From a virus, in IMG/VR virus record IMGVR_UViG_3300002140_000156, positions 1 through 20,840 of that record: a DNA stretch of 20,840 nt. One strand, given 5' to 3'. A program made the position numbers and the translations under genes. Positions 218 through 20,563 of this stretch are shown one piece after another (the first letter of the stretch is position 1; each line of letters opens with the position of its first letter). The notes under the pieces were generated by a model, which was not told the origin of the DNA, searched no databases, and saw only the letters and a program-made list of their open reading frames with translations.

Positions 218-2731
218 ATGGGATATCAAGCAATAGGTTACGACAAAAAAAATGGCATCATGCACATATGGGATGATGAATTAGGTCACAACAAGTTTCC
301 ATTTCAACCATATGGATATCTTCCGGATGAAAATGGACAATATCAATCATTAGACGGAACTAGATTAAATAAAGTTCCAGGCAATCATCGAGATAATTCT
401 AAATCGTTTGAATCTGACTTAAATGAAGAAGTTAGAACATTGATTGATTTATATTATGAATCAGATGAGCCTTCTAAAGGTCATAGAGATTTCTTCTTTG
501 ATATTGAAACAGCAAAGGATGAAAATGGTTATAGTACAATAGATGATGTTCGAACAGCAATTACATCTATTGCATATTATGATAAGGCCGGCAAAGATCG
601 ACGAGTGTTAATTCTAGATGAAAAAGGCCGCATAAAAGAGCAGGAAATACAAGGCGATAATTATGTATTAGAGATATTTCGTACCGAAAAGGACTTACTA
701 ACACGATTTATTAATAAATTTGCAGAAATACAACCAACTGTAATCACAGGATGGAACACTGATGGTTATGACGTTCCATATTTAATGGGTCGTTGTAAAA
801 AGGTATTAGGAGCTCAATCAATCAAGAAGTTTTCTCCAGCAGGAATAGTTGAACAAACTAAATCAGGTAAGTGGAAGATATTTGGAGTATCAAGTTTAGA
901 TTATATTAAATTGTATAAAAACTTTACATATACTGAACTACCTAATTACCGATTAGACACTGTTGCTAAAAAAGAATTAGGCCACGGCAAAGTAGAATAT
1001 GATGGTGATTTAGACACATTATTTACTCAAGATATTCACAAGTTTGCATATTATAACATGACTGACGTTGACTTGGTTTATGATATGGACGAAAAACTTC
1101 AACTATTAAACTTAGCACGTACAATTTGTCACAAAGGACATGTTCCTTATGAAGATGTTTATTATGCATCTAAATATTTGGATGGCGCTGCAATTGTAGA
1201 TTTAAAAAGAAATGGATATGTCGCTCCGAACAAACAATTCAGATTTATTGAAGAAGAAACAATAGCCGATGCATTAGCCGGAGCATATGTAATGGCGCCC
1301 GTTCCTGGATTGTATAAATGGATATATGATTTAGATTTAACTTCACTGTATCCAAGCATCATTATGACAGCAAATATTTCTCCAGAAACTAAAATAGGAG
1401 TTATTAAAAATTGGAATCAAGAATGTTTGTTAAGTAAAACTCCAACAGCAGTCGACTTTATGGATGGAACATATGCACAAGACATTAAACAATGGTTATT
1501 AGACAACAATTACTCAGTAGCCAGTAACGGCGCCGTATATAGAAATGATCAACGAGGATTCCTCCCAAAGATTCTAGAAAAATGGTTTGATGAACGTGTT
1601 ATTTACAAAGACAAACGCGATACATTTGAGGTAGGAACAGAAGATTATAAATTCTATGATGCAATGCAGTTAACACAAAAAGTATTGCTTAACTCATTCT
1701 ATGGAGTATTAGGATTAAAAACATTCCGATTCTATGATTTAGATAATGCCGGCGCCATTACTGCGGTAGGTCAAAGTATTATTAAATTCTCAGCAAAAGT
1801 TATTAATAACTATTACAAGAAAGAACTAGGAACCGATCACTTTATTAACGCATCAGGCGGCAAAGCAGAATTTGCATTTTATACAGATACAGATTCAACT
1901 TTTTGTAGCAGTGAGCCATTAATTAAACATCGTTTTCCTGGATGTGATACTGAAGATGAACAGTTCATGATTGAACAAACTAATGCAATTGCATCGGAGA
2001 TTCAAAAAACTGTTAATACAATGTATGATCAATATGCAAAAGTATTTCATAATACAACGTCACATCGATTCCAAATTAAACAGGAATATATTGCTAAATC
2101 TGGTTTGTGGATTGCAAAGAAAAGATATGCACAGTGGGTTATTTTTAAAGAAGGCAAATCTACGGATAAATTAGATGTAAAGGGATTAGATGTTGTAAGA
2201 TCAAGTTTCCCGGAAGATTTTAAAAAGATCATGAAAGAAACTTTATGGCATATACTTAAAGGTAAAGATAAACAAACTACATCGACATTGATACATGATT
2301 TTAAAAGTAATATCAAAACATCAAAAGTATTGAATGTAATGAAGAATTCGGGCATCAAAGAAATGTCTAAATATATACGAGGAAGAAAACCATTTACAGG
2401 ATTCATAAAAGGCACCCCAGCTCATGCTAAAGCAGGTATCAACTTTAATGATATGTTAACAACATTAACAACTGACATATTACCTATTTCAAATGGAGAA
2501 AAAGTAAAATGGGGTTATATGTTGAATAATCCATATGGATTTGAAACAATGGCACTTCGAGGTTATCAAGATCCACCTGAGTTAGTAGCATTTGCAGAAC
2601 AATATATTGATCGTAATAAAATGTTTGCATCTGACCTTAGCAACAAGTTCAATGATTTCTATGCAGCAATGGGTTGGGGAGCATTACCTGAAAATAATAA
2701 TGCAAATAAATTTTTTACATTTGGAAAATAG
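218..2731 (+). CDS. 43: Family B DNA polymerase, T4 gp43-like
   Basis: Replicative DNA polymerase with 3'-5' proofreading, 837 residues against 898 in T4. Exonuclease motifs are in order: FDIET with Asp95 and Glu97, GWNTDGYDVPY with Asp185, and YNMTDVD with Asp283. Polymerase motif A is DLDLTSLYPSI near 371-381, motif B is KVLLNSFYGVLG near 487, and motif C is YTDTDS at 555-560 with the metal-binding Asp557 and Asp559. A KKRY motif follows. No key residue is missing. The C-terminus ends NKFFTFGK, in the place where T4-type polymerases carry the peptide that docks on the sliding clamp. The start has no Shine-Dalgarno sequence, only an A-rich leader. In T4 the polymerase gene lies downstream of the clamp and loader genes; here it lies upstream, separated by a five-gene insert. 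Confidence 0.97.
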   Translation: MGYQAIGYDKKNGIMHIWDDELGHNKFPFQPYGYLPDENGQYQSLDGTRLNKVPGNHRDNSKSFESDLNEEVRTLIDLYYESDEPSKGHRDFFFDIETAKDENGYSTIDDVRTAITSIAYYDKAGKDRRVLILDEKGRIKEQEIQGDNYVLEIFRTEKDLLTRFINKFAEIQPTVITGWNTDGYDVPYLMGRCKKVLGAQSIKKFSPAGIVEQTKSGKWKIFGVSSLDYIKLYKNFTYTELPNYRLDTVAKKELGHGKVEYDGDLDTLFTQDIHKFAYYNMTDVDLVYDMDEKLQLLNLARTICHKGHVPYEDVYYASKYLDGAAIVDLKRNGYVAPNKQFRFIEEETIADALAGAYVMAPVPGLYKWIYDLDLTSLYPSIIMTANISPETKIGVIKNWNQECLLSKTPTAVDFMDGTYAQDIKQWLLDNNYSVASNGAVYRNDQRGFLPKILEKWFDERVIYKDKRDTFEVGTEDYKFYDAMQLTQKVLLNSFYGVLGLKTFRFYDLDNAGAITAVGQSIIKFSAKVINNYYKKELGTDHFINASGGKAEFAFYTDTDSTFCSSEPLIKHRFPGCDTEDEQFMIEQTNAIASEIQKTVNTMYDQYAKVFHNTTSHRFQIKQEYIAKSGLWIAKKRYAQWVIFKEGKSTDKLDVKGLDVVRSSFPEDFKKIMKETLWHILKGKDKQTTSTLIHDFKSNIKTSKVLNVMKNSGIKEMSKYIRGRKPFTGFIKGTPAHAKAGINFNDMLTTLTTDILPISNGEKVKWGYMLNNPYGFETMALRGYQDPPELVAFAEQYIDRNKMFASDLSNKFNDFYAAMGWGALPENNNANKFFTFGK

Positions 2732-3578: not shown

Positions 3579-3916
3579 AATATAGCGTAGTAGTAACATT
3601 TAGCATTGAAGGATTTCATAATTGGCCTGATGCTAAAGACATTTTTCCAGAAGTAGCATTTTTATCAGATAGACATCGACATATGTTTGGGTTCCGTTGT
3701 TATGCGACAGTAACACATACCGATCGAGATGAAGAATTTATTTTGATGCAACGCAAATTAAAATCACAATTAAGAACTAATTTTGGAGGCAATATCTTAG
3801 AATTTGGTACTATGAGCTGTGAAATGATTGGCGAATGGTTATTAGAAAATAATGAAAATCTTTACAAAGTAGAAGTTTGGGAAGATTGGGAAAATGGTGC
3901 AATAATTGAAAGATAA
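3575..3916 (+). CDS. QueD/6-pyruvoyl-tetrahydropterin-synthase-like T-fold protein
   Basis: A 113-residue protein. The start is set at the ATG overlapping the previous stop; an in-frame ATG at 3530 would give an unlikely 49-base overlap. The pattern follows the PTPS/QueD family in order: F-S-I-E-G-F-His15 (family FxxAAH), His34-Arg-His36-MFGF (family HGH plus strand), DRDEEFILMQRKL (family DF plus helix), MSCEMIGEWLL with Glu83 (family PTxEN helix), and VEVWED with Glu103 near the end. His15, His34 and His36 would form the zinc triad. QueD's catalytic cysteine, normally four residues before the HGH motif, is Leu30 here, so chemistry may differ. QueD makes carboxy-tetrahydropterin on the route to preQ0, the kind of base DpdA enzymes use. 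The neighbouring DpdA-like gene supports a link. The assignment is mine from motif order and needs a profile search. Confidence 0.55.
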   Translation: MKYSVVVTFSIEGFHNWPDAKDIFPEVAFLSDRHRHMFGFRCYATVTHTDRDEEFILMQRKLKSQLRTNFGGNILEFGTMSCEMIGEWLLENNENLYKVEVWEDWENGAIIER

Positions 3917-3917
3917 C

Positions 3918-4952
3918 ATGAAAATATTTTTAGTAGATTTAGAATCAGTACCAACAAGGTATACGTGTGAGTGGAAAACACATATTCCAGAACTATTACG
4001 TAGCAACGGATTTGATGTAACTGTTATTGAGGGCGATTTGAATATTCCAAAGTCAACAACTCCGGGAGCATTTTTAAATTTTGGTGGAACTAATATGTAT
4101 AAAGCTACTCAAGTACATAGCTTGGCAGAGATGTTTACAACCGGAAAGATTGCTGCCGGCGACCATATTATCTTTACAGATGCATGGCACCCGGGTATCA
4201 TCAATGTTAAATACATGAGCGAGCTTTTAAATATTCCTATTGTAACGCACGGTCTTTGGCACGCGGGATCATATGATCCAAATGATTTTTTAGGTCGTCT
4301 CATAAAAGATAAGCTCTGGATTAAACATGCTGAGTTAGCATTTCTTTATGCATTTAATCATAATTGGTTTGCAACGACAGCCCATTTTAATTTATTATGC
4401 AAGACATATGATGTTGCATTTGAATCATCAATAAATAAGACAGGTTGGCCAATGGAATATACTAAAGACAAAATTAAATCTATCAATTGGGCCGACAAGA
4501 AAAACATTATAGTTTTCCCACATAGAATTGCCCCAGAAAAGCGATTAGATTTATTTGAAGAATTATCGAAACGCCCTGAATTAAGTCATTATGAATTTCG
4601 AGTGCCAATGTCTGAAAAGCTCACTAAAGCTGAGTATCATGCATTGCTTCAAGATGCTAAATTTGCAATATCATTTGCAGATCAAGAAACATTGGGGATT
4701 TCTATGTATGAATCTGCTTGTGCAGGTGCATGTCCATTAGTACCAACTAGACTATCATATATTGAAATGTATGATCCAGTATTTAAACAAGCAAATACAC
4801 TTGACAGCACAGTTAACGCTATATTGTCATATGAACAAGAGGATATGACATCTGATATTTTATCTCTTGTTAATAAATTACATAAAAAATATTTTTCAGC
4901 AACAACATTAATTAATAAATTGAAACAGTACAATGAGCAAAGAACAGCCTAA
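3918..4952 (+). CDS. GT-B fold glycosyltransferase (GT4-like)
   Basis: About 344 residues. The start chosen is the ATG at 3918, two bases after the previous stop; an in-frame TTG at 3906 is less likely. The N-terminal half has a nucleotide-fold opening (MKIFLVDLESVP). The C-terminal half has the sugar-nucleotide region of GT4 enzymes: FPHRIAPEKRLDLFEEL, then Glu257-x7-Glu265 in QETLGISMYESACAGACPLVP. No membrane segment or signal peptide is seen, so it is cytosolic. Its 3' end overlaps the DpdA-like gene by 20 bases, tying the two together in translation. It is well away from the main glycosylation island, which makes a DNA-modifying role (a sugar on a modified base, as T4 glucosyltransferases do) worth considering. 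The acceptor cannot be read from sequence. Confidence 0.85.
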   Translation: MKIFLVDLESVPTRYTCEWKTHIPELLRSNGFDVTVIEGDLNIPKSTTPGAFLNFGGTNMYKATQVHSLAEMFTTGKIAAGDHIIFTDAWHPGIINVKYMSELLNIPIVTHGLWHAGSYDPNDFLGRLIKDKLWIKHAELAFLYAFNHNWFATTAHFNLLCKTYDVAFESSINKTGWPMEYTKDKIKSINWADKKNIIVFPHRIAPEKRLDLFEELSKRPELSHYEFRVPMSEKLTKAEYHALLQDAKFAISFADQETLGISMYESACAGACPLVPTRLSYIEMYDPVFKQANTLDSTVNAILSYEQEDMTSDILSLVNKLHKKYFSATTLINKLKQYNEQRTA

Positions 4953-6201
4953 GCGATTTATATACTTTCCGTCTTTATCGGCCGGCAGTATGGTATCGGC
5001 ATTCAAAAAGGACATGAAATTTACATCCGGTGATCCTGTAAAATTTTATGACTCACGATATCCAGAAAATTGGAGACATCCATATTTCCTAATTACAGCA
5101 GGACACCATTACAAGAAAATGGATTTCCGCAATGAAATTGGATTAGAAAAAGATGTATTAGTATTTGGAGATTCGGGAGGATATCAGATTGCAACCGGTG
5201 CATTGCCATATAGCAACGAATTACGTGAGAAAATATTCCATTGGTTAGAAGCTAACAGTGATGTAGCAGCAAACTTAGATATTCCGCCTAAAACAAAATA
5301 TAGAAATAAATTTGCAGAATGTGCAGATATTAGTTATGACAATTTTGCTTATTTTGAAAAACATCAAAGCGGTAAGACAAAATTCTTAAACATGTTGCAA
5401 GGATCAAACTCCGCTGAATATACTTGGTGGTATCATAAATTTAAGCATTTTGATTTCCAAGGCTGGGCAATTGGAGGACCTCAAAAATTAGTTGACTTTA
5501 TGTTTGCATTATCATTAATGCTTAAAGAAAAAGAATTTGAAAATACTCGAATTGAATATCTTCACTTGTTAGGAATTAGTAAAATTTCTGATTTCTTTAT
5601 TCTATCGACAATGCAAAAGTTAATGAATCAACATTACGGCGGAAGAATTACAGTAACAACAGATTCTTCATCGCCAGGCCAATATCCAGTATATGGAACA
5701 TATCTTCATTCAACTAACTTCAAGACACAGACGTTTTCTGAATTATATTTTCCAAAGAATGCAGAATATCGTCGCAAGTCGCATATCAAACAAGGTAAAG
5801 TTGGAGATGTAAATGGAATTGATTTAACACAAACTGTGCCATGTCAATTAGGTTGCCCAGCATGTGCTGATTTTACATATGAATATCTAGGTGGTAAAAC
5901 AGATGCAGGACTAGATCGTTATTCTCAAGAAGCTATGCCTAGAATGGTTGTTCATAACACGCATTTATATGTAACTGCTGCGGAACAAATCAATCAATTA
6001 GTTGATAGCCATGTTGAATTATTAGAAACTGTTGTTCCTAAACCATTATATGATGTAATTTTATCATTACACGAAATGTTTGCAGACCCAGACAATGCCC
6101 CTCAGATATACGAAAAGTATATTAAAACATATAAAAAGTTCGGAGGAGATTCAATCTCAACAACCGACGCAGAAAATTTTAATAAATATTTTACATTTTA
6201 A
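4933..6201 (+). CDS. dpdA: TGT-like DNA 7-deazaguanine transglycosylase (DpdA-type)
   Basis: A 422-residue member of the tRNA-guanine transglycosylase superfamily. It has the substrate-binding GDSGGYQ motif with Asp80, a NLDIPPK segment, GWAIGG (matching the family's AIGG loop), and TDSSSPG with Asp244 in the nucleophile position. A zinc site follows: Cys304-x3-Cys308-x2-Cys311, then His341 in VVHNTH. Tracing these shows all catalytic and zinc ligands present. Among phages such proteins usually act on DNA (DpdA), replacing guanine with preQ0 or a relative and blocking host restriction enzymes. A position between polymerase and clamp genes supports DNA over tRNA as substrate. The last residues, NKYFTF, nearly copy the polymerase tail NKFFTF, suggesting the enzyme docks on the sliding clamp (inference). 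A tRNA substrate is the main alternative. Confidence 0.85.
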   Translation: MSKEQPKRFIYFPSLSAGSMVSAFKKDMKFTSGDPVKFYDSRYPENWRHPYFLITAGHHYKKMDFRNEIGLEKDVLVFGDSGGYQIATGALPYSNELREKIFHWLEANSDVAANLDIPPKTKYRNKFAECADISYDNFAYFEKHQSGKTKFLNMLQGSNSAEYTWWYHKFKHFDFQGWAIGGPQKLVDFMFALSLMLKEKEFENTRIEYLHLLGISKISDFFILSTMQKLMNQHYGGRITVTTDSSSPGQYPVYGTYLHSTNFKTQTFSELYFPKNAEYRRKSHIKQGKVGDVNGIDLTQTVPCQLGCPACADFTYEYLGGKTDAGLDRYSQEAMPRMVVHNTHLYVTAAEQINQLVDSHVELLETVVPKPLYDVILSLHEMFADPDNAPQIYEKYIKTYKKFGGDSISTTDAENFNKYFTF

Positions 6202-6214
6202 AAACAAATAAACA

Positions 6215-6922
6215 ATGGAAAAAAGCAAATTACAATCATTTATTAATCGTTATTATTTAGCAGGAAATTGCGAAGCAGTTATACTAAAAGAAAACGAAAC
6301 CGGAGTTGGATGTGAATTGATTGATATGGATCAAACCGTAGTCGGAAAAATTCAATGGAAGACTACAGCATTTATGAAAGGATCATTAGGAATTAATCAC
6401 ACGGGTGCATTAACAAAAATGCTTTCTGCATTAGGAGAAAATATCAATATTGATGTTAAAGATGCTGCTGGCAAAAATTATGCAATGAAGATTACAGAAG
6501 GTAACACTCAGTTAACTTTTATGTTAGCAGATACCACAGTAATTCCTGCAGTACCAAGTATTAATGCAGAACCAGACTACTTAGTTAATATACCAATCAA
6601 TGATGAATTTATTAACAAGTTTATTAAAGCTAAAAATGCATTACCAGATGCAAAGAACTTTGCAATACAAGTACAAAATAGTAAAATTAAATTTATTATT
6701 AATTATTCAACAGTTAACGCTGATAATATTTCATTTGAAATGGATGGAGGATCAACAGATATTGAGCCAATTTGTTTTTCAGCAGACAAACTTAAAGAAA
6801 TATTGGTTGCAAATAAAGGTGACACTGGCCAGCTGCATGTTTCGACAGAAGGATTAGCTCGTATTAATTTCACAGGCAATGACTTTGAATCAACTTATTG
6901 GTTAGTTCAATTACAAAACTAA
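6215..6922 (+). CDS. 45: Sliding clamp, T4 gp45-like
   Basis: A 235-residue protein close in size to T4 gp45 (228). It has the two-domain alternation of short strands with few long helices expected of a clamp monomer, and fits the gp45 pattern: an early LQSFINRYY helix, a central hydrophobic connector near VNIPINDEFINKFIKAKNAL, and a C-terminal STYWLVQLQN edge strand. Three such subunits ring the DNA and hold the polymerase. Identity rests strongly on its place before dUTPase, gp44 and gp62, keeping the T4 order clamp, large loader, small loader. The ATG follows an A-rich stretch with no Shine-Dalgarno sequence. Confidence 0.85.
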   Translation: MEKSKLQSFINRYYLAGNCEAVILKENETGVGCELIDMDQTVVGKIQWKTTAFMKGSLGINHTGALTKMLSALGENINIDVKDAAGKNYAMKITEGNTQLTFMLADTTVIPAVPSINAEPDYLVNIPINDEFINKFIKAKNALPDAKNFAIQVQNSKIKFIINYSTVNADNISFEMDGGSTDIEPICFSADKLKEILVANKGDTGQLHVSTEGLARINFTGNDFESTYWLVQLQN

Positions 6923-7358: not shown

Positions 7359-8285
7359 ATGTACGGAAACACAGAAAATACACTTTGGGTTGAATCGTTT
7401 AGACCCGATACATTAGAAGGATATATTGGTAATGAGCATATCATTGAAAAAGTTAAGATTTTTATTGAAAATGGCGATGTACCACATTTATTATTTTACG
7501 GTCCAGCAGGAACCGGCAAAACAACGCTAGCTAAAATTATAGCGGGATCGGTAGAAGCAGATATCATGTATATCAATGCGTCTGACGAAAACTCAGTAGA
7601 TGCAGTTCGAGATAAGATAAAGCGATATGCATCAACAGTAGGATTTAAACGTTGGAAGATTATAATTCTAGACGAAGCTGATTATTTAACACCAAATGCA
7701 CAAGCAGCTCTTCGCAACTTGATGGAAACATATAGCAAAACTACACGTTTTATTTTAACATGTAATTATGTTGAAAAGATCATCGATCCGATACAATCAC
7801 GCTGTCAGACATTTGCAATTACGCCGCCAAATAAATCAGATGTTGCTAAAAGATTAGTAACGGTATTGAATGAAAAGGGAGTTGAATATGATATTAAAGA
7901 TATTGCAGCAATTATAAATTCTTCATACCCTGACATTCGTCGTGCAATCAATGCAGCACAAGCTTCGGTAGTAAATAATAAATTACAATTAGACAAAGCA
8001 AGTTCGCTTCAGGCAAATTATATGTCAGAAGTTTTAGAATTATTAAAAAATTCTAAAGATAAAAAAGCAGCATTTAATAAAATTCGTCAAGTAATTGCAG
8101 ATAGCAAAGTTAGAGACTTTACTCCAATGTACACATTCTTATATGATAGTTTAGATGAGTTTGCAATCGGCCATATTGGAGGAGCAATTTTAATTATTGC
8201 AGAAGCACAATTTAAAGATGCATCGGTGGTTGACAAAGAAATTAACATCATGGCTATGTTTGTAAATTTATTAAACGAAATTTAA
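7359..8285 (+). CDS. 44: Clamp loader large subunit, T4 gp44-like AAA+ ATPase
   Basis: A 308-residue AAA+ protein (T4 gp44 has 319) that, as a tetramer with one gp62, opens and loads the sliding clamp. It shows the loader opening WVESFRPDTLEGYIGNE, Walker A GPAGTGKTT (48-56), Walker B ILDEADY around Asp105, sensor 1 TCNYVEKI, and the arginine-finger SRC motif at 147-149, which acts on the neighbouring subunit. The C-terminal helical collar follows. All ATPase residues are intact. The gene is followed after one base by a small unknown gene, then gp62. Confidence 0.96.
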   Translation: MYGNTENTLWVESFRPDTLEGYIGNEHIIEKVKIFIENGDVPHLLFYGPAGTGKTTLAKIIAGSVEADIMYINASDENSVDAVRDKIKRYASTVGFKRWKIIILDEADYLTPNAQAALRNLMETYSKTTRFILTCNYVEKIIDPIQSRCQTFAITPPNKSDVAKRLVTVLNEKGVEYDIKDIAAIINSSYPDIRRAINAAQASVVNNKLQLDKASSLQANYMSEVLELLKNSKDKKAAFNKIRQVIADSKVRDFTPMYTFLYDSLDEFAIGHIGGAILIIAEAQFKDASVVDKEINIMAMFVNLLNEI

Positions 8286-8501: not shown

Positions 8502-8954
8502 ATGGCAGACGAAAAAAAGGGTGCAACAATCTTTGATTTTATTGATGGGGTAACTAGCAAAAAGAAAGAATGGAATAAATGGTCTGAAACCGATCAGGGT
8601 AAGTTTTCTCCATTCATTGTTAACAGATGGTTATCTATGCGTCAGGATTTAACAGAGCTTATTAATGAGTTACAAACATATACAATCGGATTGTTACGAC
8701 CAAAAGAAACTTATCGACTGTATCATGAATTTTTACCAACAAATCGAAGCTTTGCAAAGTATATTAAAGGTAAGAAAGATGACAAGTATTCAGATAAATT
8801 AATTGCACAATTATCGGAACATTACAAAGTAAGCAAATTAGAAGCATCTGATTATGTTGAATTGTTAGATCAAACAACTTGCACCCGTCTGCTAAATTTA
8901 TATGGTTATACTGAGGGAGAAGTAAAGACCATGATTAAAGGGGTTAGAAAATGA
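8502..8954 (+). CDS. 62: Clamp loader small subunit, T4 gp62-like
   Basis: A 150-residue protein (T4 gp62 has 187). The N-terminal part has the gp62-type pattern IFDFIDGVTSKKKEW followed by PFIVNRWLSMRQD (37-49). The rest is helical and charged, with no ATPase motifs, as expected for the clamp-interacting, non-ATPase subunit. Position after gp44 supports the call. Its stop overlaps the next start as ATGA. The protein is shorter than the T4 form, which is common in divergent relatives. Confidence 0.82.
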   Translation: MADEKKGATIFDFIDGVTSKKKEWNKWSETDQGKFSPFIVNRWLSMRQDLTELINELQTYTIGLLRPKETYRLYHEFLPTNRSFAKYIKGKKDDKYSDKLIAQLSEHYKVSKLEASDYVELLDQTTCTRLLNLYGYTEGEVKTMIKGVRK

Positions 8955-11453: not shown

Positions 11454-12944
11454 ATGGAGTTACCAAAGTTACAAAAGATTGACCCTAGCAAACCACAAAA
11501 AAAGAAAATTTTATTGTTAGGAGATGATTTTCGATTACCGTCTGGAATCGGAACCGTTAGTAAAGAAATTATTTTAAATACCGTTAAAGAGTTTGATTGG
11601 ATACAATTAGGAGCAGCAATCAATCATCCCGATGCCGGCAAGGCATTTGATCTTTCACAAGAGATTGTAAAAGAAACTGGCGTTGAAGATGCATCCGTAA
11701 AATTAATTCCGTGGAACGGGTATGGTGATCGCAATATATTGTTTGCAATCATCAATCAAGAACAACCAGATGCAATACTTCACTTTACTGATCCTAGATA
11801 TTGGACATGGCTATATGCGGCTGAACATGAAATAAAAACAACATTTGGTATTCCAATTACATATTATTCAATTTGGGATGATTTACCATTTCCTATGTGG
11901 AATGCACCATATTACGGAAGTTGTGATATGATTATGGGAATTAGCAAGCAATCTGATAATATTCATAGAGAAGTTCTTAAACAGAATGGCTTTGGGGTAA
12001 TTAATTACGACGAATCTAACATTGTTCCTCAAGATAAAAAATGGAACGATGTTATAACAGGATATGTTCCACACGGGTTAAATCATAATATATTTAAACC
12101 ATTACCATCAGATGATGTTGTAGTAAGTTCAATGCAAAAACAAATTAAAGAGACACACGATGTCGATTTTGTTGTAATGTGGAACAATCGCAATATTAGA
12201 AGAAAACAACCAGGGGATGTTATTTTAGCATTTAAAACATTTGTAGATGCATTACCAGAATCAAAACGTAACAAAGTAGCATTGTTAATGCACACACAGC
12301 CTGTAGATGAAAACGGAACTGATTTAAGGGCTATATGGAAAACATTAGCACCTAATTGTAAAGTAATCTTTTCGGAACAAAAATTATCTGCACAAGAGCT
12401 TAATGCAATGTATAATGTAGCTGATGTAGTAGTTAACATCGGATCAAATGAAGGATGGGGACTTAGTTCAACCGAATCAATGTTATCAGGAACTCCTATT
12501 ATTAACAATGTAACTGGAGGATTGCAAGATCAATGTGGATTTGAAGATGAAAATGGTGAGTGGATTAGATTTGATGGCGAATTTTCAACAAACCACACCG
12601 GTAAATATAAAAAACATGGTATATGGGCAAAGCCAGTATTTCCAAGCAATAGATCCTTGCAAGGATCACCACAAACACCATATATATTTGATGACAGAGC
12701 AAAATATGAAGATGTAGCAGAAGCTATTTTATATTGGTATGAAATGACCGAGGAAAATAGGTCCGCATGCGGATATGAAGGTCGAACATGGGCATTAGCT
12801 AATGGATTGACTGCAGAACAAATGGGTAATACAATGATTTCAATGTTTCAAGATTTATTTGCAATGCATAGAGAACGAAGACCATTGTTTACCGTAACAA
12901 AAGTAACTCCAACAAAATACGAACGAACAGGAATAGTAGCATAA
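11454..12944 (+). CDS. Family 4-like glycosyltransferase (GT-B), 496 aa
   Basis: A large GT-B enzyme. After a basic N-terminal tail (MELPKLQKIDPSKPQKKK) comes the first Rossmann domain, ILLLGDDFRLPSGIGTVSKE. The C-terminal domain carries VVMWNNRNIRRKQP and the nucleotide-sugar motif Glu333-x7-Glu341 in NEGWGLSSTESMLSGTPIINN. No membrane segment is seen. It begins the glycosylation island and overlaps the next GT by TAATG. Donor and acceptor cannot be read from sequence. Its first residues LPKLQKI (3-9) are repeated exactly as the last seven residues of the next protein, through different codons. The two may form a pair, share a docking partner, or derive from one tandem protein; these are inferences. 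Confidence 0.88.
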   Translation: MELPKLQKIDPSKPQKKKILLLGDDFRLPSGIGTVSKEIILNTVKEFDWIQLGAAINHPDAGKAFDLSQEIVKETGVEDASVKLIPWNGYGDRNILFAIINQEQPDAILHFTDPRYWTWLYAAEHEIKTTFGIPITYYSIWDDLPFPMWNAPYYGSCDMIMGISKQSDNIHREVLKQNGFGVINYDESNIVPQDKKWNDVITGYVPHGLNHNIFKPLPSDDVVVSSMQKQIKETHDVDFVVMWNNRNIRRKQPGDVILAFKTFVDALPESKRNKVALLMHTQPVDENGTDLRAIWKTLAPNCKVIFSEQKLSAQELNAMYNVADVVVNIGSNEGWGLSSTESMLSGTPIINNVTGGLQDQCGFEDENGEWIRFDGEFSTNHTGKYKKHGIWAKPVFPSNRSLQGSPQTPYIFDDRAKYEDVAEAILYWYEMTEENRSACGYEGRTWALANGLTAEQMGNTMISMFQDLFAMHRERRPLFTVTKVTPTKYERTGIVA

Positions 12945-14176
12945 TGAGAAAAGTAGTTATAGCGTCGCCAGTAGCGACACAATCGGGTTATGGGCATCAC
13001 GCACGTGAAATTATAACGAATATTATTGAACAACGAGGAAATGAATGGGATGTTAAATTAATTTCATTGCCATGGGGACATACTCCAATGACGTATCCAA
13101 TATCAACGGATTTGCAATTGAGAATAATTCCATTGCCATTACAAGAACAACCTGACATATGGATACAAGTATCAGTTCCAAATGAATTGCAAGTAGTAGG
13201 TAAATATAATATCGGAGTAACTGCAGGAACTGAAGGAAGCATTTGTCCACCAGACTGGATCGATAAATTAAATGCAATGAATTTAGTTATAGTTCCAAGT
13301 GAATTCACAAAAACAGTATTTGAAGAAACGGCAAAACAATCTAATAAAGTAATAACCACTAAAATCCAAGTAGTTCCGGAATATTTTGATGAAACTGTAT
13401 ATACAAATAAACAAGTAGATCCATTAAGTGAATTAGATGCAATTACAGAAGACTTTGCATTTTTATCTGTAGGACATTGGTTGTCTGGCCACGCTGGTGA
13501 AGATCGTAAAAATATCAGTGGATTGGTTCATAGATTTTTTCATACATATAAAGACAAAAAAGACACACCTGCTTTAATATTAAAAACTAGTGGTGCAACG
13601 TATAGTATAACAGATCGCATTGAAATGGAAAGTAGAATAAACCAAATTGCAGAACAGTTTGGTAATGCAAAACTTCCAAATGTTTATTTAGTGCACGGTG
13701 AATTGTTAGATGATGAAATGAATGCATTGTATAATCATCCAAAAGTTAAAGCAATGATATCATTTACCAAAGCAGAAGGGTTCGGCCGACCATTATTAGA
13801 ATTTTCAACAACGGGTAAACCAATCATTGCTCCGTATTATTCAGGACAAACAGATTTTCTTAAAAAAGATTTTATTTGTGAATTACCAGGAGTACAGACC
13901 CCAATTCATGCTTCAGCTCAAAACGAATTTTTAATTAATGGTGCAACATGGTTTACTCCTGATTATGGATATGCTGGCAAAATGATGCAAGAAGTTCAAA
14001 AGAACTACAAGAAATGGTTAGAGCTAGGTAAGCGTCAACGCTATTTCGTTAATTCAGGATTTACTAAAACAGCAGTAGCAGCAGTATATGAACAAGTATT
14101 AGCAACAGTAGATGCTGGGGTTGAATCTATTCCTAAACCAGTAGAATTAAAACTACCTAAATTGCAAAAAATATGA
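12944..14176 (+). CDS. Family 4-like glycosyltransferase (GT-B), 410 aa
   Basis: A GT-B enzyme opening with VVIASPVATQSGYGHHAREI, where the glycine-rich loop follows the first strand. The middle has FLSVGHWLSGHAGEDRKNISGL. The donor-binding motif is Glu278-x7-Glu286 in AEGFGRPLLEFSTTGKPIIAP, and KLPNVYLVHGELLDDEMNALY precedes it, as in GT4 enzymes. It is coupled to the upstream GT by TAATG and to the GT2 by ATGA. The C-terminal tail after the last helix (PKPVELKLPKLQKI) carries the LPKLQKI heptapeptide seen at the start of the upstream GT. Substrates are unknown. Confidence 0.88.
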   Translation: MRKVVIASPVATQSGYGHHAREIITNIIEQRGNEWDVKLISLPWGHTPMTYPISTDLQLRIIPLPLQEQPDIWIQVSVPNELQVVGKYNIGVTAGTEGSICPPDWIDKLNAMNLVIVPSEFTKTVFEETAKQSNKVITTKIQVVPEYFDETVYTNKQVDPLSELDAITEDFAFLSVGHWLSGHAGEDRKNISGLVHRFFHTYKDKKDTPALILKTSGATYSITDRIEMESRINQIAEQFGNAKLPNVYLVHGELLDDEMNALYNHPKVKAMISFTKAEGFGRPLLEFSTTGKPIIAPYYSGQTDFLKKDFICELPGVQTPIHASAQNEFLINGATWFTPDYGYAGKMMQEVQKNYKKWLELGKRQRYFVNSGFTKTAVAAVYEQVLATVDAGVESIPKPVELKLPKLQKI

Positions 14177-14796
14177 AAATAACATACGCTATTACAGTGT
14201 GTAATGAGTTTAAAGAAATTCAAAAGCTTGTTACACACTTGCTTAAATATAAAAGACTACAAGATAATATTGTTATATTGTTCGACAGTAAAAATGGAGA
14301 CATAGAGATTGAATCTTTTTTACGATCACATTCTATTAACAAAGAATTTGCCTGGCATAAAGGTGAGTTCGAAGGTCATTTTGCAGATTGGAAGAATAAG
14401 TTAACTAGTTTATGCACTGGAGATTATATTTTCCAAATTGATGCAGATGAGATACCAAATGAATATCTTATAAAAAATCTACCATTAGTATTAGAGATAA
14501 ACCCAGAAGTTGATATGTTAAGAGTACCTAGAGTCAATACTGTAGAAGGATTAACTGAGGAGCACATTAAAAAATGGGGATGGAATGTAAATGAAAAAGG
14601 TTGGGTCAATTGGGCTGATTGGCAAATGAGAATCTATAAAAAACATCCAGATATTAAATGGAAAAATAAAGTTCATGAGTTATTAGATGGCTTTAAAAAT
14701 CACAGTATGTTACCATTAGAAGAAGAATGGGCTTTATATCATCCAAAAACAATTGAACGACAAATAAAACAAAATAATTATTACGATACATTATAA
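14173..14796 (+). CDS. Family 2 glycosyltransferase (GT-A)
   Basis: A 207-residue GT-A enzyme. It begins MKITYAITVCNEFKEIQKLV, the usual GT2 opening, and has the metal and nucleotide-sugar DXD motif as Asp90-Ala-Asp92 in FQIDADEIPN. The later WADWQMRIYKKHPDIKWKNKVHE resembles the WaaE/KdtX-like GT2 group that acts on core oligosaccharides. It is rather short but reaches the family's C-terminal helices. There are no transmembrane helices, so it is not a processive polymerase. It overlaps the genes on both sides, so it is part of one translationally coupled block. Confidence 0.88.
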   Translation: MKITYAITVCNEFKEIQKLVTHLLKYKRLQDNIVILFDSKNGDIEIESFLRSHSINKEFAWHKGEFEGHFADWKNKLTSLCTGDYIFQIDADEIPNEYLIKNLPLVLEINPEVDMLRVPRVNTVEGLTEEHIKKWGWNVNEKGWVNWADWQMRIYKKHPDIKWKNKVHELLDGFKNHSMLPLEEEWALYHPKTIERQIKQNNYYDTL

Positions 14797-15605
14797 TGAA
14801 TTTTATATCTACAAATCATCAAGGCGGTATTGGAAATGTTATGTTTAAACTAGCCGCGGCAATTAGTTTAGCATTAGATAATGACATTGACTATATATTT
14901 TCTAATGAATTCTTACGACCTATAGATCGAATTTCTACAAAAGGTTTTGACGATTATCGCGTATATTATGATAATATTTTACGTAATATACCATTTATTA
15001 ATAACTTACCATATGGTTATGCTGTGTATAATCAAATTGGATTTCATTATCAAGATATTCCATATCAAACTAATACCAATTTATTGTTAACTGGTTATTA
15101 CCAAAGTGATAAATTTTTTAGTAATAATAAACAATACATTATAGATTTATTTAAACCATCAGATGAAAACAAAAAATTAATACAATCATCATATAATGAT
15201 TTAAATCAATATGTTTCAATTCACGTAAGGCGAGGGGATTATTTACAGTATCCTGACCATCATCCACTACAGACTATAGAATACTATCAGTCAGCAGTAG
15301 ATACATTTGGACTAGATAAAACGTATATGATATTTAGTGATGATATCGACGGATGTAAATCTATGTTTGAGTTTATACCAAACAAAATTTTTCACAATTC
15401 AGGAACTGATTGGCTGGATATGTATATAATGAGTATGTGTGAACATAATATTATTTGTAATAGTAGTTTTTCTTGGTGGGGTGCTTATTTGAATGAAAAT
15501 CCTAATAAAATAGTAGTCGCACCAAAAAGATGGTTCGGACCTATATATTCTGCATGGGATACATCAGATCTAATTCCAACATCATGGACAATTATTGATA
15601 AATAA
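14796..15605 (+). CDS. Family 11 fucosyltransferase (alpha-1,2-type)
   Basis: A 269-residue GT11 member, which transfers fucose from GDP-fucose, usually in alpha-1,2 linkage. Motifs in order are NHQGGIGNVMFKLAAAISLA at the start (family GGLGNQMFQ), HVRRGDY at 143-149 (donor-binding HxRRGDY), FSDDIDGCKSMF, and CNSSFSWWGAYLN near the end. All are characteristic, and the length is normal. It pairs logically with the GT10 fucosyltransferase and GDP-mannose 4,6-dehydratase further downstream. It starts on the last base of the GT2 stop. Confidence 0.92.
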   Translation: MNFISTNHQGGIGNVMFKLAAAISLALDNDIDYIFSNEFLRPIDRISTKGFDDYRVYYDNILRNIPFINNLPYGYAVYNQIGFHYQDIPYQTNTNLLLTGYYQSDKFFSNNKQYIIDLFKPSDENKKLIQSSYNDLNQYVSIHVRRGDYLQYPDHHPLQTIEYYQSAVDTFGLDKTYMIFSDDIDGCKSMFEFIPNKIFHNSGTDWLDMYIMSMCEHNIICNSSFSWWGAYLNENPNKIVVAPKRWFGPIYSAWDTSDLIPTSWTIIDK

Positions 15606-15625
15606 CATTGGATTTTTAAAAAATA

Positions 15626-15644
15626 ATATTTATAATAAAGTTAT
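15626..15644 (+). promoter_or_regulatory. AT box class B, copy 2 (before cupin gene)
   Basis: ATATTTATAATAAAGTTAT ends directly against the ATG at 15645 and is nearly identical to 11424-11443, which has one base more in the spacer. It fills a 39-base gap between the fucosyltransferase and the cupin gene, suggesting an internal promoter or start-site control for the second half of the island. Confidence 0.4.
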
Positions 15645-16058
15645 ATGGAAAAAATATTTAGTAAACAACAACCAGACAAACTGTTGCATGTTATAGTTAG
15701 AAAAAGCGATCTAACTCCCGGGAGAATAGAAGTAATATCAGAAGAACATTTTATTCAGTGCGCACTTCTTAATATGCAACAAGGCAAAACATTTCAGCCG
15801 CATAAACATATATGGAAAGAACGAACTCGAAATGTAATTGCACAAGAATCTTGGATTGTTATACAAGGTAGCGTAAGATGTACATTTTATGATTTAGATG
15901 ATCAAATTATTGTTGAACCAATATTATATCCAGGAGATGCTTCATTTACTTTAGAGGGTGGTCATAATTACCTAATATTAGAAGATAACACATTAGTATA
16001 CGAATATAAAACAGGTCCATATGAAGGACAGCGTTTTGATAAAACCTTTATAGATTAA
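15645..16058 (+). CDS. Cupin-fold protein of sugar biosynthesis type
   Basis: A 137-residue single cupin. Metal-binding residues are suggested by QPHKHIWKERT (two histidines and a glutamate) and a late histidine in GGHNYLILEDN; the ESWIVIQGSVRCTFYD segment fits the first cupin strand pair. Such proteins occur in O-antigen and capsule clusters (WbuC and relatives), some acting as sugar isomerases or epimerases and others unassigned. Here it sits between a fucosyltransferase and a PhyH oxygenase, which supports a sugar-modifying role. The exact reaction cannot be assigned. Confidence 0.75.
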   Translation: MEKIFSKQQPDKLLHVIVRKSDLTPGRIEVISEEHFIQCALLNMQQGKTFQPHKHIWKERTRNVIAQESWIVIQGSVRCTFYDLDDQIIVEPILYPGDASFTLEGGHNYLILEDNTLVYEYKTGPYEGQRFDKTFID

Positions 16059-16061
16059 AAT

Positions 16062-16955
16062 ATGGAAATAATTAAAAATTTTAAAACAGACAAAAACGCA
16101 TTAACATTACCTTGGACAGAATCTCCATTTTTCTACGATTTATTAGAATCATCTAATTTAACCGAAGAAGAACGACAAATGGCAATTGATTTCAATAAAA
16201 AAGGTTATTTGATTATTGATTTAGAATTAACAAATAATTTTGTTGATGATATCGTTACCGATATGTATGATGCGGTTAAAAGAGATAGTGTTACTTTTCA
16301 AGCAGAATTTTATACATATTCAGATAGCCCGAGAATTTTTGAGGAATGGAGAAATAGTGATAACATTAAAAATTTATGTTTAAACTCAAAATTAATAAAA
16401 ACGTTAGAGTTTCTTTACAACAAAGAAGCATTTCCATTTTCAACAATAAACTTTATTAAAGGATCAAATCAACCACTTCATAGCGATACAATACATTTCC
16501 ACACAATTCCACAATTATGGATGTCTGGAGTTTGGGTGGCATTAGAAGATACAACTACTGAGAACGGAACTCTTAATATTGTTCCGGGAAGTCATAAATG
16601 GAATATTTACGATTACCAAAGTTTAGGATTACCACATCCTGATGATTATGCAGACGGTGAAAAAAATAACTATAGAATTTATGAAGATTTAATAACAGGC
16701 CTTGTAGAAGCACATAAAGTTGATGTTATGCCAGTACCATTAAAAAAAGGACAAGCCTTAATATGGTCCGCAAATTTACTTCATGGCGGAATGAAAATTG
16801 TGGATGAAAATAGTACACGATTGACACAAGCAATTCATTATTTTTACAAAGATTGTACTAAATATTATCATCCAATGTTTTCAAAACCACATGACGGCAT
16901 ATATGCTGATAAATGGTGTAATGAAGAAACTAATATTAAAACATATAAAAAATGA
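16062..16955 (+). CDS. PhyH-family Fe(II)/2-oxoglutarate dioxygenase
   Basis: A 297-residue phytanoyl-CoA dioxygenase-like enzyme. The Fe(II) triad is His140-x-Asp142 (LHSDT) and His241 (LLHGG), and 2-oxoglutarate would bind Arg253. The family's GTLNIVPGSHKW segment lies between them. All active residues are present. Such enzymes hydroxylate small molecules or side chains with oxygen and 2-oxoglutarate. In this island the substrate is probably a sugar, lipid or nucleotide-sugar intermediate. It starts three bases after the cupin stop and overlaps the SDR by ATGA. An alternative is modification of a nucleobase, since phage dioxygenases can act on DNA bases, but the sugar-gene surroundings argue against it. 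Confidence 0.88.
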   Translation: MEIIKNFKTDKNALTLPWTESPFFYDLLESSNLTEEERQMAIDFNKKGYLIIDLELTNNFVDDIVTDMYDAVKRDSVTFQAEFYTYSDSPRIFEEWRNSDNIKNLCLNSKLIKTLEFLYNKEAFPFSTINFIKGSNQPLHSDTIHFHTIPQLWMSGVWVALEDTTTENGTLNIVPGSHKWNIYDYQSLGLPHPDDYADGEKNNYRIYEDLITGLVEAHKVDVMPVPLKKGQALIWSANLLHGGMKIVDENSTRLTQAIHYFYKDCTKYYHPMFSKPHDGIYADKWCNEETNIKTYKK

Positions 16956-17599
16956 AAAAAATAGTTATTTTTGGTGGTAGCGGAGGCATAGGATCTTCAA
17001 TTGTAAATTTATTAAATAATTACAATATCACTTCATTAGGTAGTAAAGACGTTAATGTATCAAATTTTCATAATGTTAAACAATTTTTTGATACAAACAC
17101 ATATGATATTGTAATAAACTTAGCAGGAATAAATCATGATGTATTTATACATAAAATTAATGAAACTCATCTAAATAGTATTGACAAACAAATTGATGTT
17201 AATATAAAAGGGAATATTAATATTATCAGTAATTGTTTGCCTTCGATGCGAGAAAATAATTACGGCCGAATTATTACAATATCATCAGTATTAGCAGAAA
17301 AGCCGGTAATGAGTACAGGAATATATTCTGGATGTAAAGGTTTTATAGATTCATTTATTAAAACTGTTGCATTAGAAAATGCTAATAAAAATATTTCATG
17401 CAATAGTATTCAATTGGGTTATTTTGATGCTGGACTAACACATAAAATACCAGAACCAGTTCGAGATAATATTCAAAATAGTATTCCAATGAATCGTTGG
17501 GGCACAATTGAAGAACTAGCAAACTTAATTGAATTTTTAATACAAACACCGTACGTAACGGGAACAAATATCAAAATCAATGGCGGCATCGATTTTTAA
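16952..17599 (+). CDS. Short-chain dehydrogenase/reductase
   Basis: A 215-residue classical SDR. It has the NAD(P)-binding GGSGGIG (8-14), the NLAG motif, a serine in IISSVL-type context near 111-112, and the catalytic Tyr125-x3-Lys129 (YSGCK). The C-terminal TGTNIKINGGIDF matches the FabG-like end. At this length it is on the short side but complete. Members reduce or oxidise alcohols and ketones, and here the substrate may be a sugar or the PhyH product. The next gene starts within its last 20 bases, so the two are coupled. Confidence 0.92.
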   Translation: MKKIVIFGGSGGIGSSIVNLLNNYNITSLGSKDVNVSNFHNVKQFFDTNTYDIVINLAGINHDVFIHKINETHLNSIDKQIDVNIKGNINIISNCLPSMRENNYGRIITISSVLAEKPVMSTGIYSGCKGFIDSFIKTVALENANKNISCNSIQLGYFDAGLTHKIPEPVRDNIQNSIPMNRWGTIEELANLIEFLIQTPYVTGTNIKINGGIDF

Positions 17600-18116
17600 A
17601 AAAGAAGGCATCGATTCGTATATCGATACTACATGTAGAATAAAACATCCAAAAAATTTAGAGATTGGAAATTATGTTGCAATCGATATGGGTGTTTATT
17701 TATCAACATCTGCGACTATAGGAGACTATGTACATATAGCTCCATATTCATGTATTATTGGCGGAATTGATAGTAATTTAATCATGGAGGATTTCAGTGG
17801 TATATCTGCCGGCTGCAAAATTTTATGTGGTAGTGATGACTTTACTAACGGTATGATGAATCCGCAAGTGCCACAACAATATCGTTCTCCTAAGATATCA
17901 TATGTTCATTTTAAACGGTTTTCATGTGTAGGAGTTAATTGTGTAGTGATGCCTGGAGTAACATTAGCAGAAGGTTCCGTAGTGGGGTCAAATTCAGTTT
18001 TAACAAAAGATACAGAACCTTGGACAATATATGTAGGTAATCCTGCTAAACCTATAAAAATTCGAGATAATGAAACAATATTACAATATGCAAAAGAATT
18101 AGGATATGCAAAATAA
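17580..18116 (+). CDS. Left-handed beta-helix (hexapeptide) acyltransferase
   Basis: A 178-residue hexapeptide-repeat protein related to sugar O- or N-acetyltransferases. Turns of the left-handed beta helix show as repeating I/V-G-x-x pairs: LEIGNYVAIDMGVYLSTSA, IGDYVHIAPYSCIIGGID, and later VGVNCVVMPGVTLAEGSVV followed by VGNPAKPIK. The conserved NPAK end of the family is intact. The start is the ATG overlapping the SDR stop by 20 bases; the next in-frame ATG would remove the first coil. Beside an aminotransferase it may acetylate an amino sugar made from a keto-sugar, giving something like N-acetylperosamine; that is inference. Confidence 0.9.
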   Translation: MAASIFKKEGIDSYIDTTCRIKHPKNLEIGNYVAIDMGVYLSTSATIGDYVHIAPYSCIIGGIDSNLIMEDFSGISAGCKILCGSDDFTNGMMNPQVPQQYRSPKISYVHFKRFSCVGVNCVVMPGVTLAEGSVVGSNSVLTKDTEPWTIYVGNPAKPIKIRDNETILQYAKELGYAK

Positions 18117-18172
18117 ACTAAAAACAATGTTTTATATCTTTCTTTAATATTAAAACAATTAAAAGGCTTAGA

Positions 18173-18766
18173 ATGAATTTTAATACAGTAACGGAATTTG
18201 AAAATCAAATTGCAGAATTTTTTGGTGCAACATATGCGGTAGCAGTCGATAGCTGTACTCATGGCATAGAATTAGCATTGCGATATACTAATACTATTCA
18301 CATTAATGTACCAAAGCATACTTATTTATCAGTTCCATTTCTGGCTAATAAACTAAATATAGAATTAGTTTGGAGAGATGAAGATTGGGTAGATTATTAT
18401 TATTTAACTGCAAACGTTATTGATGCTGCTGTACTTTGGAAATCTAATAGCTATATTCCAAATACCTTTATGGGAGTTAGTTTTCAATTCCAAAAACATT
18501 TATCACTAGGAAGAGGTGGAATACTGTTAACAGACAACAAAGAAGCTGCAATTAAAATAAAAAAGATGTCATACGACGGAAGACTTCCAGGATTACCATG
18601 GCGAGACCAAGACATTGATACTATAGGATATCATTATTACATGACACCCGAGACTGCTCAATTAGGATTAGACAAGTTACCAGCAGCAATAACAAATACA
18701 CCTAGACAGTGGGTAGTAACTGATTGGCCAGATTTAACACAAATGAAAGTTTTTAATGATAAATAA
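18173..18766 (+). CDS. Short DegT/DnrJ/EryC1-type aminotransferase
   Basis: 197 residues, about half the usual 370. The PLP fold opening is present: FENQIAEFFGATYAVAVDSCTHGIELAL, then the strand with VIDAAVLW (family D-A-A), and Lys108 in SFQFQKHLSLGRGG, where the family carries the PLP-binding lysine. GYHYYMTPETAQLGLDKL matches the family's GYNYRM segment. Everything after that, including the C-terminal small domain with its substrate-binding residues, is missing, and the protein ends in a short tail and normal stop. No continuing frame for the lost domain is visible, because the next frame already encodes a GT10 enzyme. It may be a compact phage form or a decayed gene. A 56-base gap separates it from the acyltransferase. 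Confidence 0.78.
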   Translation: MNFNTVTEFENQIAEFFGATYAVAVDSCTHGIELALRYTNTIHINVPKHTYLSVPFLANKLNIELVWRDEDWVDYYYLTANVIDAAVLWKSNSYIPNTFMGVSFQFQKHLSLGRGGILLTDNKEAAIKIKKMSYDGRLPGLPWRDQDIDTIGYHYYMTPETAQLGLDKLPAAITNTPRQWVVTDWPDLTQMKVFNDK

Positions 18767-19568
18767 AATACCAATTAATATGATAGGGGGAGGTTTCTAT
18801 CATGACATATGTTCAAGTGCAGGTAGTGAGCCAAAATTAATTGAATGGAAAAAAGATGGCTCTGCAAATATGTCTATACATATTGATCATCATATACAAC
18901 AGCCAATTGATAAAACTAAAAAGAATTTTGCTTGGCTATCTGAATCAAAAACGATTAATCCTGAATTGTATGAATGGTGTATACATAATGTAGATTATTT
19001 AACTAATAACTTTGAATTAATTTTTACTAATGATAAAAGTTTATTAAGATTATCATCTAAATTTAAATTAGTAATTTGTAGTGCAGCCCCGTGGGTAAAA
19101 CAACATGATATATTCACAAAAACTAAATTAGTATCAATGATTGCATCTAATAAATCTTCATGTCCCGAACATGAACTTAGAAAAAATGTAATAAATAGAT
19201 TTAAAAATGATATTGATTTATATGGAAGAGGATATGTAGAAATTTCTGACAAATCAATAGGATTAAATGATTATTACTTTTCTATATGCATGGAAAATCT
19301 TACATACAGTAATGGGTATTCAGAAAAAATAACAGATTGCTTCGCTACTGGAACAATCCCGGTATATTATGGTAGTCCGGATATAGGAGAAGTTTTTAAT
19401 GAAGATGGAATAATTCAGTTAACTGATAATTTTTCAATAAATGAACTTACGCCTGAATTATATTGGTCTAAAATTGAAGCAGTACGAGATAACTTTCAAC
19501 GAGCTATTAACTTTCCAATTGCGGAAGACTGGATTTATGATACATATATTAAAAATTTGGAAAACTGA
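18756..19568 (+). CDS. Family 10 fucosyltransferase (alpha-1,3/4-type)
   Basis: A 270-residue GT10 member, which uses GDP-fucose. The defining donor-binding block is present: YYFSICMENLTYSNGYSEKI followed by TDCFATGTIPVYYGSPDI, with the conserved Ser-Glu-Lys at 189-191 and the G-x-x-P-V-Y-Y-G turn. The preceding NRFKNDIDLYGRGY matches the family's helix and strand with DxYG. Length is in the bacterial range. It overlaps the aminotransferase end by 11 bases and is followed by a 23-base gap before the dehydratase. Together with the GT11 gene it argues that the finished glycan contains fucose. Confidence 0.93.
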   Translation: MINKIPINMIGGGFYHDICSSAGSEPKLIEWKKDGSANMSIHIDHHIQQPIDKTKKNFAWLSESKTINPELYEWCIHNVDYLTNNFELIFTNDKSLLRLSSKFKLVICSAAPWVKQHDIFTKTKLVSMIASNKSSCPEHELRKNVINRFKNDIDLYGRGYVEISDKSIGLNDYYFSICMENLTYSNGYSEKITDCFATGTIPVYYGSPDIGEVFNEDGIIQLTDNFSINELTPELYWSKIEAVRDNFQRAINFPIAEDWIYDTYIKNLEN

Positions 19569-19591
19569 TAAAAAATTAATATAATAACAAT

Positions 19592-20563
19592 ATGAAAAAA
19601 GCATTTATAACAGGCATCGCAGGTCAAGACGGATCTTACCTAGCAGAATATTTAGTATCATTGGGATATGATGTTCATGGAATTGTACGACGGAATTCGG
19701 TTGCCGAACATCAACAAAGTAGAATCGAATCAATTAAAGATAAACTACATATATACTACGGAGACTTATTAGATCAGTCTAGTTTAGAACGATTATTAGA
19801 TGAGATTCAGCCAGATGAAATATATAACTTTGCAGCACAAAGCCATGTACGAATTAGTTATGATATTCCTCAATTTACAGCACAAACAAATGCAGTAGGA
19901 GTGCTAAATATATTAGAAGCCTATAGACGAGCTTGCCCAAAAGCTAAGTTTTATCAAGCAAGTAGTTCTGAAATGTTTGGAAGTTCAGTTGACTCTGACG
20001 GATTTCAACGAGAAACAACTCCAATGAATCCAGTATCCCCATATGGTTGTACTAAAGTATTTGGATATAATATCGTACGCAATTATCGTAATGCATATAA
20101 ATTACATGCTAGCAACGGTATTTTATTTAATCACGAATCGCCGCGCCGCGGCGCTAACTTTGTTACAAATAAAGTAGTTAAAGCTGCTGTGATGATTAGT
20201 TTAGGATTAGATGATAAGTTAGAATTAGGTAATATGGATGCATATCGAGATTGGGGACATTCATATGATTACGTACGAGCAATGTATTTAATTATGCAAC
20301 AACCCCAAGCTGGTGATTGGGTAGTAGCTACTGGCGAAACAAGATCAGTTCGAGATATGTGTGAATATGTTTTTGGTCAACTAGGCCTAGACTATAAACA
20401 TTATGTATTGCAAAATGAGAAGTTCTTGCGACCAGAAGAATTACCATATCTTAAAGGAGATTCAACAAGAATCCGTACTGAGTTAGGTTGGAGTCCGACG
20501 TATACATTTGAAAGTATGATGGATGAGATGATTGCCTTTTGGAAAACTATTTTGACAAAATAA
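19592..20563 (+). CDS. gmd: GDP-mannose 4,6-dehydratase
   Basis: Converts GDP-D-mannose to GDP-4-keto-6-deoxymannose, the precursor of GDP-fucose, GDP-rhamnose and GDP-perosamine. 323 residues (E. coli 373). The NADP-binding motif is TGIAGQDGSYLAEYL (from residue 7), with Ala in place of the common Thr. The catalytic set is SSSE with Glu127 and YGCTK with Tyr151 and Lys155. NFAAQSHVRISYDIP and NHESPRRGANFVTNKV are characteristic of the family. A GDP-fucose synthase (fcl) is not inside the window; it may lie beyond the end or be supplied by the host. The AT-rich gap before the ATG contains TTAATATAATAACAATATG, loosely like the start-overlapping boxes. Confidence 0.97.
   Translation: MKKAFITGIAGQDGSYLAEYLVSLGYDVHGIVRRNSVAEHQQSRIESIKDKLHIYYGDLLDQSSLERLLDEIQPDEIYNFAAQSHVRISYDIPQFTAQTNAVGVLNILEAYRRACPKAKFYQASSSEMFGSSVDSDGFQRETTPMNPVSPYGCTKVFGYNIVRNYRNAYKLHASNGILFNHESPRRGANFVTNKVVKAAVMISLGLDDKLELGNMDAYRDWGHSYDYVRAMYLIMQQPQAGDWVVATGETRSVRDMCEYVFGQLGLDYKHYVLQNEKFLRPEELPYLKGDSTRIRTELGWSPTYTFESMMDEMIAFWKTILTK

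Follow-up and report, generated by a model that had tools for sequence, protein, structure and literature searches.

The locus described here raises the question of why an enzyme whose predicted task is to exchange ordinary guanines of the phage DNA for modified bases should carry the C-terminal tail of a DNA polymerase. The window, that is the whole stretch of DNA analysed, is a viral record of 20,840 bases, and its polymerase, DpdA-like, clamp and clamp-loader genes, with the features inside them, lie on the plus strand. The polymerase gene (218..2731) encodes a family B, gp43-like enzyme of 837 aa (Pfam DNA_pol_B, 2.8e-39; phrog_262, 1.9e-175) with the C-terminus NNNANKFFTFGK and the last residues NKFFTFGK before the stop. 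The DpdA-like base transglycosylase of the TGT fold (4933..6201, 422 aa) has the C-terminus STTDAENFNKYFTF and finishes with AENFNKYFTF. The polymerase tail A829-N-K-F-F-T-F-G-K837 (2702..2728), the probable clamp-docking counterpart, is kept in relatives and stands in the same place as the T4 clamp-interacting peptide SLDFLF; the DpdA-like hexapeptide NKYFTF (residues 417-422, 6181..6198) is kept in about 150 relatives. At the DNA level 17 of 18 bases are identical between positions 2705-2722 (AATAAATTTTTTACATTT, polymerase) and 6181-6198 (AATAAATATTTTACATTT, DpdA-like), and a degenerate pattern of the shared 18-mer matched only these two sites in the record. This likeness had been pointed out in the first-pass annotation, and its positions and residues proved to be exact; the limits of the tail had to be redrawn, since the conserved core is F416-x-x-[FY]419-F420 and not the last four letters.

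The identity of the enzyme was addressed mainly by structure. On its AlphaFold model (pTM 0.81) the DpdA-like protein has the TGT/DpdA fold: all 17 Foldseek matches at E<=0.001 were TGT-type (E 5.9e-8 to 2.3e-5), and 7ui4, a DpdA described as DNA preQ0 insertase, was among them. The likeness to TGT in sequence is weak (profile matches at E 0.008-0.02; Pfam E 0.021, TgtA E 0.0077), and searches of PDB sequences with the protein and with its profile returned chance matches only. Several residues that are invariant in 36 homologues look like the catalytic and zinc residues of TGT, an equivalence judged from the motifs: D80 in GDSGGYQ (5170..5172; TGT motif DSGG[FY]Q) is the candidate equivalent of TGT Asp102, D244 in TTDSSS (5662..5664) is the candidate nucleophile, and C304-x3-C308-x2-C311 together with H341-N (5842..5955) may form a zinc site comparable with the CxCxxC...HN of TGT, with the Cys spacing CxxxCxxC here against CxCxxC there.

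Hundreds of relatives, a large family of environmental T4-like phages, were found in IMG/VR, and about 160 of them were read. The pattern F-x-x-[FY]-F near the end was kept in every complete DpdA tail (about 150 relatives, with DpdA-like proteins 68-100% identical). In the main type, represented by 85 distinct tail DNAs, F416, [FY]419 and F420 were each present in 85/85, and the residues between them varied (E/N/K/V/H, N/A/E and K/E); F416 and F420 were also invariant in the 36 diverse homologues. The core of the window protein, F416-N-K-Y419-F420 (6178..6192), has the PIP-like spacing h-x-x-[FY]-F. The final residues are FKF or FTF, FKL once, with an extra Asn in two loci, and in the clade L068-L077 F-x-x-F-F is kept and the change comes only after the core (FNQFFGQKTN; the ends are GQKTN or GQKQN). 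Alignment of homologue C-termini had been suggested as a check of the clamp reading, and it gave a tail kept across the family rather than one lost or replaced by unrelated ends. The polymerases of the relatives end in [KR]FF[STNK]F, with or without a further G, K, N or Q, within the pattern N-N-x-[AVML]-x-K-F-F, the exceptions being L050, with FSY, and L131, with a broken ORF. In L131 the best polymerase ORF has the end VKTQRGIVKVCNLKETDEII where the usual tail would be expected, and an intein or intron may have split it. In Microcystis phage Mel-JY01 the polymerase (43%) ends LSKFFNFK, and there is no DpdA between polymerase and clamp. The connector that precedes the DpdA tail (residues 397-412, ..TYKKFGGDSISTTD; 6121..6168) is modelled with mostly low confidence towards its end, yet its sequence is conserved, TYKKFGG[DS]SISTTD being near-invariant in the 85 distinct tails; this exceeds the needs of a simple tether, and the connector may contact DNA or the clamp.

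In order to weigh the likeness against chance, the last 12 residues of each gene were scored against the polymerase tail of the same genome. The DpdA-like protein of the window scored 35, and the next gene 14. It ranked 1 in three relatives with about 200 genes each (G001, G002, G004) and 2 in G003, behind a minority-strand ORF. In these four relatives the ORFs ending in [FYW]F.F.{0,2} were the polymerase and the DpdA-like gene only, plus one FFWF ORF in G001. Random tails would be expected to do as well 0.04-0.28 times per genome in the relatives with DpdA on top. The match in a single relative is thus only modestly improbable and is modest evidence by itself; the weight rests on the conservation and on the independent case described below. 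As a control, the same scoring was applied to T4 (127 ORFs in the segments read), where gp55 and gp33 ranked 1 and 2 for likeness to the gp43 tail; both are proven gp45 ligands, the tails of which are interchangeable with that of the polymerase (PMC2988020). With phmmer, no homologue of T4 gp55 came to light among the relatives.

The observation that carries most weight comes from Vibrio phage 2.275.O, a remote phage in which the tail likeness recurs independently and with a different motif: the polymerase ends AANNTDLFDW and the DpdA-like protein VLNNNDLFGW. The latter was the best match to its own polymerase tail, with a score of 39 versus 29 for the next among 2,018 gene tails of seven genomes. 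The polymerase of 2.275.O is remotely gp43-like (24-30%) and a gp44-like loader is also present; its DpdA-like protein is related to that of the window over about 106-121 residues only (34%), and its gene follows that of the polymerase at a short distance, homologues of QueF, QueC and FolE being in the vicinity. In the same phage an 89-aa ORF (MG592671.1, 118668-118937) has the end QLMLSSLFEW, which resembles the tails of the polymerase and the DpdA-like protein, and could be a third clamp client.

A polymerase-like tail is not universal among DpdA-like proteins. When IMG/VR was scanned with the enzymes of 2.275.O and PA5oct, no relatives turned up. PA5oct itself was considered as a third case (polymerase end HFDSLFGW) and set aside: SFNSLF lies 36 residues before the end of its DpdA-like protein, which ranked 11th when the last 60 residues were scanned. 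No such tail was found in nt-1 DpdA2, GR7B and Voja-6; the tail of nt-1 DpdA2 is unlike that of its own polymerase, GR7B gave no T4-type polymerase match, and Voja-6 was judged from the DpdA end alone. Phosso (VEGLF at the end) and L165/L166 (GGIFS) have suggestive ends, and were not retained, there being no T4-type polymerase in the stretches read.

According to the AlphaFold model, the tail is predicted to be a mobile segment outside the core: pLDDT is about 50 for residues 401-422, with a short helix at 413-419, and residues 405-422 have low confidence and no packing. The tail has the sequence features of clamp-interacting and PIP peptides, i.e. a hydrophobic pair with an upstream hydrophobic residue, near the terminus and outside the fold. 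Peptides of the form h-x-x-[FY][FY] are established ligands of PCNA-type clamps, and the PIP-like spacing of the tail core fits a clamp of the PCNA type. The T4 polymerase tail SLDFLF occupies a hydrophobic pocket of gp45, where it forms a single-turn helix (PMC12746103). In the relative L034 a TAA read as Gly would join tail and clamp into a natural tail-stop-clamp read-through; its AlphaFold model gave a tail pLDDT of about 31-45 and no confident docking, and the first domain of the clamp was also poor.

The gene that directly follows is the proposed docking partner. It encodes (6215..6922) a protein that by modelling has the two-domain fold of a PCNA/gp45-type sliding clamp (Foldseek PCNA, 3.7e-12, with the model of a homologue; PRK01115 clamp model, E 1.5e-4). 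After it come a dUTPase and the adjoining clamp loader, with a large gp44-like subunit (7359..8285; phrog_168, 2.1e-84) and a small gp62-like one (8502..8954; phrog_225, 8e-18), and wherever a locus carries both, the DpdA gene stands immediately 5' of that for the clamp. Precursor genes are found as well: in one relative FolE, QueD and QueE closely precede the polymerase gene. In four large relatives (140-169 kb) QueC was not found, though relatives carry FolE, QueD and QueE, a pattern that suggests CDG as precursor.

Taking these together, we consider it quite probable that the tail of the DpdA-like protein is a clamp-interacting peptide of the polymerase type, which couples 7-deazaguanine insertion to replication; the docking itself is a prediction. 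Since the enzyme ends like the probable clamp-holding peptide of the polymerase, a tether between base swapping and the replication machinery is probable. A tether of this kind had been suggested in the first-pass annotation, and the tail kept family-wide, the adjoining gene for a clamp of predicted PCNA/gp45 fold, the logic of gp43/gp55/gp33 and the case of 2.275.O all support it, with binding as the predicted step. In the mechanism that we propose, the TGT-fold DNA transglycosylase would put a 7-deazaguanine base, most probably CDG or a compound derived from it, in the place of guanine. Its core (residues ~1-400) would be joined through the connector to F416-x-x-[FY]419-F420-x-F422, which would form a short helix and plug the hydrophobic pocket of the phage gp45/PCNA-like clamp. 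The clamp remaining on the new duplex DNA would carry the enzyme along, and base swapping would in this way be replication-coupled and aimed at phage DNA. We infer that the tail binds in the pocket and that the enzyme works processively behind the fork, and we likewise infer the chemistry of the base that it inserts. We also lean, with reasonable confidence, towards a wider statement: T4-type phages would at least twice, with different peptides, have given a DpdA-type transglycosylase the clamp-docking tail of the polymerase, and the clamp would deliver guanine-to-7-deazaguanine exchange to nascent phage DNA.

Other origins of the shared tail were weighed against this reading. The near-identity of the 18 bases in the window could suggest that one gene end was recently copied onto the other, or converted to it, without any function; recent copying had also been considered in the first-pass annotation. 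Across the relatives, however, the polymerase and DpdA tails are 1-8 of 18 bases apart (mode 4-6), the window being the extreme of this range; synonymous changes occur at invariant Phe codons, at F416 and F419, and in L144 both proteins end NKFFKF with different codons. Recent conversion was rejected on account of these differences, and with a tail common to the whole family we regard functionless copying as highly improbable. The preference for TTT as the Phe codon of F420 and F422 was looked at too, and it is accounted for by the general TTC-TTT use in FF pairs. It is quite unlikely that the tail serves the structure or the dimerisation of the enzyme, or is kept for some other reason, its polymerase likeness being a coincidence within one lineage. 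The high conservation of the neighbouring connector would fit such a role, as would the chance expectation in any single relative; the unpacked, low-confidence state of residues 405-422 and the invariance of the core amid varying residues speak against it, and a different polymerase tail matched by a correspondingly different DpdA tail in 2.275.O is something that a one-lineage coincidence cannot explain.

The clamp may also not be the true partner: the tail could dock on another replisome component common to the polymerase and the DpdA-like protein, such as the clamp loader, the single-strand binding protein or the helicase, and replication coupling would still hold. In the relatives, similar h-x-x-[LF]-F peptides form the ends of a gp32-like single-strand binding protein and of a 91-aa protein, so short hydrophobic tails appear to be used more widely in these phages. 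T4 gp32 is to our knowledge not a recognized clamp ligand. Against another partner, the extreme tail of the T4 polymerase is the clamp-binding peptide and the window polymerase has its tail in the same place, and it is the clamp gene that immediately adjoins the DpdA-like gene; we therefore hold this alternative to be unlikely, and prefer docking on the clamp.

The closest precedent for such docking is T4 itself, where gp43, gp55 and gp33 (SLDFLFG, SLDFLYEAND and TLDFLL) place the polymerase tail at the extreme C-termini of non-polymerase proteins; T4 uses the shared tail for late transcription, whereas the carrier here is a DNA base transglycosylase, and LDFL gives way to NK[FY]F[TKS]F or, in 2.275.O, to DLFxW. 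PIP-box proteins of the archaeal and eukaryotic PCNA share the h-x-x-[FY][FY] peptide and a clamp of PCNA fold, and differ in that the present motif has no leading Gln, stands at the extreme C-terminus and belongs to a T4-type phage replisome. Post-replicative DNA modification on the clamp is known in the DNMT1 type of coupling. Another phage DNA-modifying enzyme associated with the clamp is the T4 alpha-glucosyltransferase, which co-purifies with gp45 according to a statement in PMC13216743 citing Sommer 2004; that study itself finds that the level of modification is not chiefly set by the contact with the clamp (PMC13216743). It glucosylates hmC, ends CFKEQFDIITK and binds gp45 without a polymerase-like tail, thus DNA modification in association with the clamp has a precedent. 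The new element is that a TGT-type base exchanger carries the polymerase's own tail. The DpdA/DpdA2 proteins of phages such as 9g and nt-1 are alike in the TGT fold (the 7ui4 match) and in the 7-deazaguanine synthesis genes of the genome; the window protein differs in being too distant for Pfam TGT (E 0.02), and nt-1 DpdA2 in having no polymerase-like tail. A link between DpdA and the sliding clamp was not found in the open-access papers searched; only two of them contain both terms, and one of these, PMC10002423, mentions the two separately.

If the proposal is true, the clamp tether would be a direct and general answer to how DpdA reaches phage DNA, avoids host DNA and works processively. 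It would tie the timing of hypermodification to the fork, and would add base exchange to the T4 'tool-belt', next to transcription (gp55/gp33) and glucosylation (alpha-glucosyltransferase). Comparing the last residues of every gene with the polymerase tail of its own genome, which recovers gp55 and gp33 in T4, offers a cheap genomic route to clamp clients.

Further genes of the relatives have ends of related type. The phage endonuclease I (PF05367, Holliday-junction resolvase type; L186:8081-8563, plus strand, also in G001, G003 and G004) has the PIP-like ends PKRFFS, VRKFFA, VKRFFS and IKTFFG, and is a second candidate clamp client. The 91-aa protein (L187:10230-10505, plus strand, G001, G003, G004) ends TLTKLF in 4/4 large relatives and has no Pfam or PHROG match; it is possibly a small clamp-binding factor, perhaps gp33-like. 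The gp32-like single-strand binding protein (L188:17012-17788, plus strand) ends SAF[DN]DLFN in relatives, an h-x-x-L-F tail.

Sugar-related genes accompany the locus. A glycosyltransferase-like gene (3906-4952; Glycos_transf_1, E 0.0014) lies between the polymerase and the DpdA-like gene in the window, also stands beside DpdA in G001, and its product might decorate the inserted base. After the replication block, genes of glycosyltransferase-like and sugar-nucleotide-like type form a long series over 11454-20840, which includes a GDP-mannose dehydratase-like gene (19592-20563), assigned from sequence only.
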